From the NCBI GenBank assembly GCA_903842445.1, contig CAIMLT010000097.1, forward strand, positions 1 through 34,713: a DNA stretch of 34,713 nucleotides, read 5' to 3'. The stretch comes from an uncultured bacterium (GTDB lineage Bacteria > Patescibacteriota > Minisyncoccia > Moranbacterales > UBA2206). Below are positions 6,967 through 9,608 of the stretch, piece after piece (the stretch's first letter is position 1; every line of letters begins with the position of its first letter). Below the pieces are notes generated by a model. It saw only the letters and a program-made list of their open reading frames with translations, made no database searches and was not told the origin of the DNA. Made by a program: the position numbers and the translations under genes.

Positions 6967-8184
6967 CTAGTTTATACCCAAAATTTCTCCCACATAATCG
7001 ACGTCTTTATCCCCACGACCGGAAAGATTGATGATGATGATTTCATCTTTTTTCAACTTTCCCGCCAACTTGATCGCGTGTGCCACGGCGTGCGCGCTTT
7101 CCAAAGCAGGAATTATCCCTTCCGTTTTACTGAGTACCTGGAAAGCTTCTAGTGCTTCTTTGTCATTGGCCGAAACATATTCAACTCGATTTTTATCTTT
7201 GAGATGCGAATGTTGTGGACCAACTCCCGGATAATCTAAGCCTGAGGCAATCGAATGCACTGGAAACGGTTCACCTTTTTCGTCTTGCAAAAGATAGGTG
7301 AACATTCCGTGCAATGTTCCTGGAGTTCCGAGCGTTAGTGTCGCAGCGTGATCACCCGGCTTGAAACTTCTGCCGGCCGGTTCCACGCCAATCATTTTCA
7401 CGTCGTCATCCAAAAATGCGTGAAAGAGTCCCATCGCATTTGATCCGCCACCAACACAAGCGACCAAATAGTCTGGCAATCTATTTTCTTTTTGTAGAAT
7501 CTGCTCACGCGCTTCCTTTCCGATAATCGACTGGAAATCTCGCACCATCATCGGATAGGGATGCGGGCCAACTACCGAACCGATGCCAAAAAAAGTATCC
7601 TTGTATTCTTTCATATACACTCCAAAAGCACTATCCACCGCATCCTTGAGGCATTTTCCTCCGCTTTCCACTGTCACAACCTTAGTTCCCAAAAGTTGCA
7701 TGCGCAGAACATTTTGATGTTGTTTTTTCACATCAATCGCGCCCATATGAATTTCGCACTCCAGCCCCAAAAGCGCCGCTGCTGTTGCCAGTGCCACTCC
7801 GTGTTGTCCCGCTCCCGTTTCCGCCAGAAACTTTTTCTTCCCCATTCTTTTTGCCAAAAGCGCTTGCCCTAATGTGTGATTGATTTTGTGCGCTCCGGTG
7901 TGATTTAGATCTTCACGCTTAATGTAGATTTTAGCTCCACCACATTTTTCCGTCAGATTTTTGGCAAAAAATAGTGACGATGGTCGCCCAACATAATCAG
8001 AGAGAAGCATTTTTAATTCCGCTTGAAACGCTGGATCGTTTTTCGCTTCCGCGTAGGCTTTCGCCACCTCGTCCAATGCGTCTTTCAACTGCGGCGGAAC
8101 AAATTGCCCGCCATATTCGCCAAAAAAGCCTTCGCCATTTGGCAAGTTTAAATAATCATTCTTCTCAACATTTAAGTTTTTCAT
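6967..8184 (-). CDS. trpB: Tryptophan synthase beta chain
   Basis: GEFGGQFVP-like start ([14 protein letters not shown]), PLP lysine motif [41 protein letters not shown]. Confidence 0.97.
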
Positions 8185-8341
8185 ATAATTTCTTCAATAC
8201 GACGTAGCCTTGGCATAGTCGATTTAGATTAATTTAGATTAAAATTAGCACGGCTAATTTGCCGAAATAATCTTTCGCCAATAATACACGCCTGGTTTTC
8301 GAAAATAAATTTTGCTTTGCATAGAAATTAAAAATAAACAC

Positions 8342-8368
8342 AAAAAAACCGCCCTTTGCAGGCGATAA
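8342..8368 (-). terminator. Intrinsic terminator-like hairpin in the trpB leader (candidate attenuator)
   Basis: Minus strand ATCGCC TGCAAAG GGCGGT TTTTTT; 6-bp stem (one U.G) followed by T-tract. Confidence 0.65.
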
Positions 8369-8395
8369 ATAATTTCTAAAAAGATAGCGAAAAAA

Positions 8396-8458
8396 TTACC
8401 GCCTATATAATTGGACGGATAGCCAACTTAGATTTAATTGTGCTAATATTTTTCTCAT
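8396..8458 (-). CDS. Candidate leader peptide MRKILAQLNLSWLSVQLYRR (one Trp)
   Basis: ATG at the predicted transcription start; TAA lies inside a segment complementary to the 5' arm of the downstream terminator. Not in the ORF track (too short). Confidence 0.4.
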   Translation of the reverse strand: MRKILAQLNLSWLSVQLYRR

Positions 8459-8464
8459 ATTGGC

Positions 8465-8493
8465 ATTCTAGCAATGAGTTGCACTTGTGTCAA
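8465..8493 (-). promoter_or_regulatory. Strong sigma70-like promoter abutting the 3' end of tRNA-Ser
   Basis: Minus strand TTGACA-17 nt-TAGAAT; -35 at 8488-8493, -10 at 8465-8470. Confidence 0.75.
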
Positions 8494-8581
8494 TGGCGGA
8501 AGAGGGGGGATTCGAACCCCCGGTACCTTGCGGCACACACGCTTTCCAAGCGTGCCGTTTAAGCCACTCACGCACCCTTCC
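8494..8581 (-). tRNA. tRNA-Ser (anticodon GGA), 3' CCA encoded
   Basis: Minus strand GGAAGGGTGCGTGAGTGGCTTAAACGGCACGCTTGGAAAGCGTG...GGGGGTTCGAATCCCCCCTCTTCC-G-CCA; loop TTGGAAA, long variable arm. Confidence 0.95.
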
Positions 8582-9608
8582 TTGATTTTATTTTCAAATA
8601 TTCATCCAATCTTTTGCTTTGATGCGCATTACTGAAACCTATTTCTTTCCTATACCGCAACACCTCCGATTCTCTGTAGAGAAAAATATTGTCCTTGCTC
8701 CAGCTTCTTTTGGGGTGAAATTCCATATCAGCAAGTGTTTTTTCCACAAAATTCAATAGTGACTTGGATTTATTCGTAAAACATAGCCCGACATTGAAAG
8801 ATTTCCATCTACCATTGCTGTGCTGATGATAGTAAATTCCTCCATCAGTGTCAACCAATCCCCTCAAACAACTTTTAGAATAATTAATATCTTTTTTAAT
8901 CCAATCTGGAACATCAACCTGATTTTTAACCTTACTTCCTTTTTTTATTTTATTTTTTTCTAAAAATTCAACCAGCCTCACTGATGACACAACCAATCTT
9001 ATAACATTCTTACTCACAGGCGAGGATAACGCGTAAATTACTGGCTTAATTCCGAAAAGACTTTTAATCAATTTTTTAACTTTTTTACAATAGTCTTGAC
9101 CGTTTTTTCTATTAAAAGAAATTGTAATTTGAAAAGCGTTATTAACTCCTCCATCTCCTAGAAATATACCCATGAACTCAGCCAGATCTTGAGATTTTCG
9201 AGGAACCAAAATAACTTTTCGTAAATTACAATTTGAATATAGTTCCGGAAATGATCTGCGCTTTTTTTGAGAACTCTTCCCTCCTTTCTTTCTTCCCTCT
9301 GGTGTTCCTGGACCTCCGTATTTTTGAGCAAGTGCGAGTCCACCTTTCTTCGCAGCCTTTTTAATATTCCAATAATCAGAAAGAGCTTGATAGGGATAAT
9401 TCTTAGGATCTATTTTTTTATTAGAAATTTTCAGTAGTTTTTCAAAGGCTATTCCTGACATTGTGTATTTTTCTCTTTTCCAGTCTGCCAATGTCCTCAA
9501 GCTAACGCTTAAATTATCAGCCATTTCTAGCCAACTAACAAAACAAGTATCGTAAACATCGAATAGAAATTTTTTTTGCGTTCCTTTTTTGAATTTTATT
9601 CTAGACAT
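8568..9608 (-). CDS. LAGLIDADG-type homing endonuclease with N-terminal HTH-like region
   Basis: Two degenerate LAGLIDADG motifs: LAEFMGIFLGDGGV and CLRGLVDTDGGIY. Start at MSRIKFK (9608), just after the promoter at 9618-9645. Stop codon TGA (8568-8570) lies inside tRNA-Ser. Confidence 0.85.
   Translation of the reverse strand: MSRIKFKKGTQKKFLFDVYDTCFVSWLEMADNLSVSLRTLADWKREKYTMSGIAFEKLLKISNKKIDPKNYPYQALSDYWNIKKAAKKGGLALAQKYGGPGTPEGRKKGGKSSQKKRRSFPELYSNCNLRKVILVPRKSQDLAEFMGIFLGDGGVNNAFQITISFNRKNGQDYCKKVKKLIKSLFGIKPVIYALSSPVSKNVIRLVVSSVRLVEFLEKNKIKKGSKVKNQVDVPDWIKKDINYSKSCLRGLVDTDGGIYYHQHSNGRWKSFNVGLCFTNKSKSLLNFVEKTLADMEFHPKRSWSKDNIFLYRESEVLRYRKEIGFSNAHQSKRLDEYLKIKSRKGA

Follow-up and report, generated by a model that had tools for sequence, protein, structure and literature searches.

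The attenuator of the E. coli trpL type, known from Proteobacteria, shares with the locus described here a short open reading frame (ORF) with Trp codons, segments that can pair as 1:2, 2:3, and 3:4, an intrinsic terminator, and a stop codon near segment 2. This locus lies in a window of 34,713 nucleotides (contig CAIMLT010000097.1) from an uncultured bacterium of the phylum Patescibacteriota, order Moranbacterales. It departs from the E. coli type in that its leader would control a lone trpB and not a biosynthetic operon, has its start codon at the predicted 5' end of the RNA, bears one Trp codon and very short stems, gives no Rfam match, and belongs to a different phylum. In the Alphaproteobacterium Sinorhizobium meliloti, the trpL (peTrpL) attenuator RNA starts with the ATG of the leader ORF (PMC7298713); this Trp leader is leaderless, as is that predicted in the window, and controls trpE(G). 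The RNA of Corynebacterium glutamicum ilvL starts one base from the leader start codon, and Corynebacterium trp operons are preceded by leaders with double or triple UGG (PMC11857589, PMC1262725), these ilvBNC and trp attenuators differing from the window in belonging to Actinobacteria and in serving full operons. Given the precedents of S. meliloti trpL and C. glutamicum ilvL, a leaderless leader would be a shared feature and would introduce no new principle. Another point of comparison is the trpRBA salvage operon of Chlamydia trachomatis, in which TrpA is kept, with TrpR and YtgR as its described controls (PMC7755916). C. trachomatis resembles the window lineage in its reduced genome, partial Trp pathway, and Trp-responsive control, with TrpR beside trpB also found in three relatives of the window, and differs from the window genome, which lacks TrpA and carries a putative leader-peptide attenuator.

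The open-access literature, with most subscription papers and preprints outside this scope, yielded nothing that joins Patescibacteria or the candidate phyla radiation (CPR) with leader-peptide attenuation, and no work on CPR trpB with indole. Classical ribosome-mediated Trp attenuation is itself known, and that it is unreported in the phylum Patescibacteria is likely rather than proven. Gene regulation in these bacteria has been little studied, and the common picture of them is one of minimal cells fed by a host. An attenuator in this phylum would imply that translation can work coupled to transcription there, on RNA that seems to be leaderless, and the system is small enough to be tested in a laboratory bacterium.

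The trpB leader of the window and its congener

We consider it highly probable, on the sequence comparisons below, that a stand-alone trpB gene in the window is under a ribosome-mediated transcription attenuator that senses Trp. The features of the locus are as follows:

8494-8581, minus strand: tRNA-Ser(GGA), upstream of the leader on the same strand
8488..8493, minus strand: -35 box TTGACA of the leader promoter, abutting the tRNA-Ser CCA; kept in the congener G006
8465..8470, minus strand: -10 box TAGAAT, after a 17-nt spacer and 6 nt ahead of the leader ATG
8396..8458, minus strand: leader peptide ORF MRKILAQLNLSWLSVQLYRR and stop, 20 codons, ATG at 8458; predicted to be leaderless
8423..8425, minus strand: putative regulatory Trp codon (codon 12), the only Trp codon in the window leader
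8414..8418, minus strand: segment 1, CCGUC, able to pair with GGCGG of segment 2, weakly so in the window
8396..8405, minus strand: segment 2, UAGGCGGUAA, with the leader stop codon inside; 2:3 pairing p = 0.005
8359..8368, minus strand: segment 3, UUAUCGCCUG, common to antiterminator and terminator
8341..8366, minus strand: intrinsic terminator AUCGCC-loop-GGCGGU plus U tract (segments 3:4), -8.8 kcal/mol; kept in G006
8254..8322, minus strand: second small ORF (ORF2), MQSKIYFRKPGVYYWRKIISAN and stop, between terminator and trpB, on the read-through RNA; no evident Shine-Dalgarno
6967..8184, minus strand: trpB, stand-alone tryptophan synthase beta subunit of 405 aa, the downstream gene under the leader; TIGR00263 score 575.5 bits (cut-off 392.45)

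An earlier note on this DNA had proposed the promoter TTGACA-17-TAGAAT next to the tRNA CCA, the ATG, and a 20-codon ORF with one Trp codon, all of which we recovered base for base. The promoter scores 11/12 and is one of two such matches in 4.5 kb, and transcription is predicted to start at or next to the A of the leader ATG. The proposed pairing of segments 2 and 3 also held, with TAGGCGGTAA (8396-8405) and TTATCGCCTG (8359-8368) forming a candidate antiterminator of 10 bp that is better than in shuffled sequences (p = 0.005), and the terminator overlapping segment 3 was found where expected, its stem at 8348-8366 followed by a T run. The claim that trpB is an orphan was likewise confirmed: neither TrpA nor TrpC (indole-3-glycerol-phosphate synthase, IGPS) was found in the window genome (979 kb, 97% complete). 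The suggested 1:2 pairing of CCGUC with GGCGG fared less well, as this stem did not exceed shuffles in the window (p = 0.29) and gained support across the family with one locus per clade (p = 0.0015), where it was still weaker than the 2:3 pairing. Against an attenuator in the window speak the single Trp codon, the Leu-rich peptide, and the 1:2 stem at chance level, and the window evidence taken alone is suggestive only. The single Trp codon, already listed as a weak point, stands as such in the window, but the congener and 17 of the 18 other leaders are tandem.

The only genome of the genus with a close TrpB was this congener, G006, whose TrpB is 93% identical to that of the window and whose upstream region can be aligned with the window along the whole leader. 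Its promoter, TTGACA-17-TAAACT, lies at the same distance from the ATG, and its leader, MKILPVKVNLSWWSAHYCRR and stop, keeps the frame and the length of 20 codons and has tandem Trp codons. The two leader ORFs differ by 18 substitutions and no indels, a 2-nt indel lies just past the stop, and no difference is seen in AGGCGGTAA, TTATCGCCTG, or the terminator stem. Conservation in relatives, which the earlier note had named as the check on its reading, was thus found in the leader frame, the stop, the Trp codon, and the alternative pairing.

The same comparison bears on a different reading, in which the hairpin is only the terminator of tRNA-Ser, the ORF and promoter-like sequence are coincidental, and trpB has a downstream promoter of its own. 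The tRNA-Ser gene does lie directly upstream on the same strand, and the hairpin, as the sole terminator in the gap between tRNA-Ser and trpB, could serve both transcripts; yet in G006 an 84-aa ORF intervenes, the tRNA-Ser lies some 440 nt upstream, and promoter, leader, and terminator remain with trpB, so the terminator belongs to trpB and not to the tRNA. Moreover, a leader is present without a tRNA in three further upstream regions (L020, L025, L047), and a plain terminator would not keep Trp codons, frame, and alternative pairing. On the G006 synteny, we reject the tRNA terminator as the sole explanation and regard it as very improbable.

Two further features were seen near these loci. In the window, an ORF resembling a LAGLIDADG endonuclease (PF14528; 8568-9629, minus strand) overlaps the tRNA-Ser gene by 14 bases at its 3' end; in G006, a SAM (S-box) riboswitch above the Rfam gathering score lies downstream of trpB (L002:3287-3398).

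Recurrence of the Trp leader in Patescibacteria

Further trpB genes of the window TrpB clade were collected by searching the order, the class, and the phylum with TrpB, and their upstream regions were read for leaders. This gave 18 more Trp leaders before related Patescibacteria trpB genes, 17 of them with Trp-Trp, which differ in sequence and are alike in geometry:

G094: MSNVPFRTSFIAWWTAS
G040: MSKYNILNVSTWQVVQSFERVLCFRKI
G683: MRLTLMQISFNWWTTSLWR
G883: MQSTRMQISFNWWTTSLWR
G879: MKNRIINQNWWTTSLWR
G881: MKMISCYQHWWTTSLWR
G891: MKQQITQLALMTFCWWTGRYRWRE
G749: MQIIKYNIIFWWTAQNHRVV
G764: MRHLISNSSIWWTAQKLWVD
G486: MINYKICIVKFNISWWTRSHW
G913: MTNFFKYINWWTKSLW
G648: MKTNTQITNSWWNSLK
G867: MKLNTQLTTAWWNSLK
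G863: MTSSYTHTSFWWTGRYLWQCG
G865: MKSINTYASSWWTSRYLWQCG
G864: MITSYTRTSCWWIGRYPWQCG
G808: MHNNKSLAISFVNATFTWWA
G023, before a more distant TrpB-like gene: MTNYIINGLTQKNIWWARTFPRAGWRF

In an automatic count, a Trp-Trp ORF with a terminator was present at 16 of the 26 loci of the window TrpB group, where dinucleotide shuffles predict 0.02, and at 2 of 23 among other TrpBs; these counts are not independent, since common descent and transfer along with trpB connect the leaders, and the window and G040, each with a single Trp codon, stand outside the 16. In a TrpB scan of genome contigs, generic TrpBs from a wide range of phyla made up most of the matches, and the only useful Patescibacteria locus was L047, which is the G913 locus.

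The alternative pairing was far stronger than expected by chance. Across 19 leaders, the segment after the Trp codon paired with the 5' arm of the terminator (2:3) better than in shuffles with a combined p = 3e-15, or 3e-11 with one leader per clade, values that take the clades as independent, which is only roughly true given the gene tree and gene transfer, and that depend on terminators fixed by eye with some room for choice. The first Trp codon lies 16-22 nt ahead of segment 2 in 16 of the 19 leaders. The stems themselves are wholly unlike between clades (AGGCGG/CCGCCT, TTTGAACGA/TCGTTCAAA, GTGAAGCG/CGCTTTAC, and AGGGAG/CTCCCT), and the same geometry with unrelated stems amounts, at the level of sequence, to compensatory change across the family. 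At G808, the four-segment structure was not found, and a short GGGCTTAGCCC hairpin begins on the Trp codons themselves. Taken together with these comparisons, the window sequence points to an attenuator far beyond chance.

From these parts we infer how the element would work. The RNA would start on the leader ATG or no more than a few bases from it, and a ribosome would load at its 5' end while the RNA is being made. With Trp-tRNA plentiful, the ribosome would reach the stop in segment 2 and mask that segment, and the 3:4 terminator would form; with Trp-tRNA scarce, it would wait at codon 12 and cover segment 1, 2:3 pairing would follow, and transcription would read through into ORF2 and trpB, whose product would then make Trp out of serine and, probably, scavenged indole. 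In a masking model with equilibrium folding, in which the RNA is hidden up to 12 nt past the Trp codon start or up to 12 nt past the stop, masking at Trp led to the antiterminator and masking at the stop to the terminator in 13 of the 19 leaders, the window included (0.65 antiterminator at Trp vs 0.94 terminator at the stop). The other six (G913, G879, G891, G749, G486, and G863) did not switch in this simple model. Equilibrium folding without ribosome loading predicted read-through and not termination, and regulation would therefore depend on efficient leaderless initiation.

The sequences ahead of the leaders are consistent with such initiation. The -10 box is separated from the ATG by 6 nt in the window and by 6-10 nt in 11 relatives: the best promoter match falls 6-10 nt ahead of the ATG in the window, G006, G094, G683, G749, G648, G808, G883, G863, G865, and G864, and a second, equal-scoring match does so in G040. 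By eye, G867 has a TAGAAT 7 nt ahead of its ATG. Such spacings leave no room for a Shine-Dalgarno sequence, and with so close a -10 box these leaders look leaderless or nearly so. The exceptions are G879, G881, and G891, whose leader start codon overlaps or directly follows the last bases of a TrpR-family gene (PF01371, E about 1e-20), and G913 and G486, which have no clear promoter. Three proposals of the earlier note, drawn from the window, thus gain from the wider sample: the 1:2/2:3/3:4 geometry recurs with Trp-Trp leaders and unrelated stems in other lineages, the freeing of segment 2 by stalling at Trp is reproduced by the masking calculation for the window and most relatives, and the leaderless start is favored by the promoter spacings.

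A scan of the window genome for the leaderless pattern gave 11 matches against 1 in the reversed control, most of the others opening ORFs of few codons, and does not show that leaderless genes are common in this genome. Elsewhere in the window genome, two leaderless-looking short ORFs, MKNVKTNNQPNLKISEL and MFNLTKTTQKNYTLFIISVLIIIKAGFGFREMYRG (L158, C78:1128-1165, and L151, C9:3596-3633), are each followed by a terminator-like hairpin and are possible further attenuators. Paired small ORFs were also seen: G023 (L006, reverse complement) has two tandem Trp-containing leader ORFs with a hairpin after each, and G826 (L125, reverse complement) has two Trp-Trp ORFs, MKSLQNHYKTSSWWCL and MKHNIFFLIRYHFIWWGQPLKLNLLSNQLLI.

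A second small reading frame before trpB

ORF2 of G006, MQSRIYFRKPGVYYWRKIMLVF and stop, is nearly the same as that of the window over its first 18 codons. ORFs with W[RQ] (Trp-Arg or Trp-Gln) occupy the place of ORF2 at 11 of 24 loci against 0.5 expected, the motif having been picked after the data were seen and the G530 instance being doubtful. The second small ORF was noted in the window, L002:1398, L113, L112, L116, L142, L144, L020, L025, L145, and L005. A profile built without the window family gave the window ORF rank 8 among 3769 small ORFs, while the best ranks with other families left out ran from 2nd to 555th. The profiles also brought up, unprompted, MKRKFLFRNRAQEFWRSILYLSNF in G013, where it follows a T-box-like leader and precedes a TrpB-like gene; E was about 1e-7 with most profiles. 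In these data, loci whose leader ends in LWR or YLWQ have no ORF2, and most others have one.

These properties lend something to the view that stalling at Trp codons acts mainly via RNA stability, Rho, or translation and not via intrinsic termination, ORF2 being the main control point. ORF2 is conserved, contains Trp, mostly ends 11-34 nt ahead of the trpB coding sequence, and occurs without a preceding attenuator in G896 and after T-box-like leaders in G910 and G013. However, the U-tract terminators and the 2:3 pairings are strongly non-random, and a conserved fold joining ORF2 with the start of trpB was looked for and not found, and we give this view little chance of being right. Alongside the attenuator, which remains our preferred reading, ORF2, with its Tyr/Phe-rich start and TGG CGN nearer the end, is kept under attenuator, T-box, or neither; it might, tentatively, be a second Trp-dependent control layer acting by Trp-codon or nascent-peptide stalling, or else a trpB-specific micropeptide. 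No regulator of such a type is known to us from earlier descriptions, and ORF2 poses a new testable question.

The trpB gene and other putative Trp controls at related genes

No match to TrpA or TrpC over the cut-off was obtained in any leader-bearing genome tested. Because the window genome is without both, its TrpB, which contains no Trp residue, probably salvages indole. In the TrpB tree, the window gene clusters with genes of another class and apart from the trpB of a genus mate (G004), whose product is 52% identical to the window TrpB; trpB has therefore moved between lineages, and its leader apparently with it.

Other putative Trp controls were found at related genes. The trpB genes of G204 and G530, in which trpA is kept, have T-box leaders (Rfam E about 1e-9, below the gathering score), and a T-box takes the place of the attenuator at L106:1080-1266, L118:929-1128, L145, and L005 (two by Rfam, two by a motif seen by eye). 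A TrpR-family gene (PF01371) ends at the leader ATG in L136, L138, and L137, making TrpR, attenuator, and trpB one unit, and the trpB of G707 has neither leader nor T-box and, by eye, a divergent TrpR-like gene upstream. Since related trpB genes have T-boxes and three have TrpR upstream of the leader, control by Trp supply is, judged from these upstream regions, the rule for these genes. A leader switch on one salvage enzyme, surviving gene transfer and giving way to a T-box in some lineages, would imply a fluctuating Trp supply. That the window region is itself a riboswitch that binds a protein or a metabolite (such as a T-box, TRAP, or the 'trpB motif' of Firmicutes, a riboswitch candidate described in PMC11109978) and not a ribosome-read leader can be dismissed as extremely improbable in spite of the T-boxes of G204 and G530, as Rfam covariance models at 7900-9000 gave no relevant match up to E = 10, save one chance-level match on the opposite strand, and the conserved elements are a Trp-codon reading frame and alternative helices.

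Several single loci carry features of their own. The trpB promoter region of G707 (L114, reverse complement) contains the palindrome CATGCTAT-CACA-ATAGCATG, and the trpB of G648 (L116) has an in-frame TAA near its start, which marks a pseudogene or an assembly error. In the Woesearchaeota locus L026, a possible ORF2 ranked 98 and fell short of significance. On this Woesearchaeota contig (L026:2911-5354), trpB stands beside a gene resembling an archaeal tryptophanyl-tRNA synthetase, and its TrpB branches inside the Patescibacteria attenuator clade.
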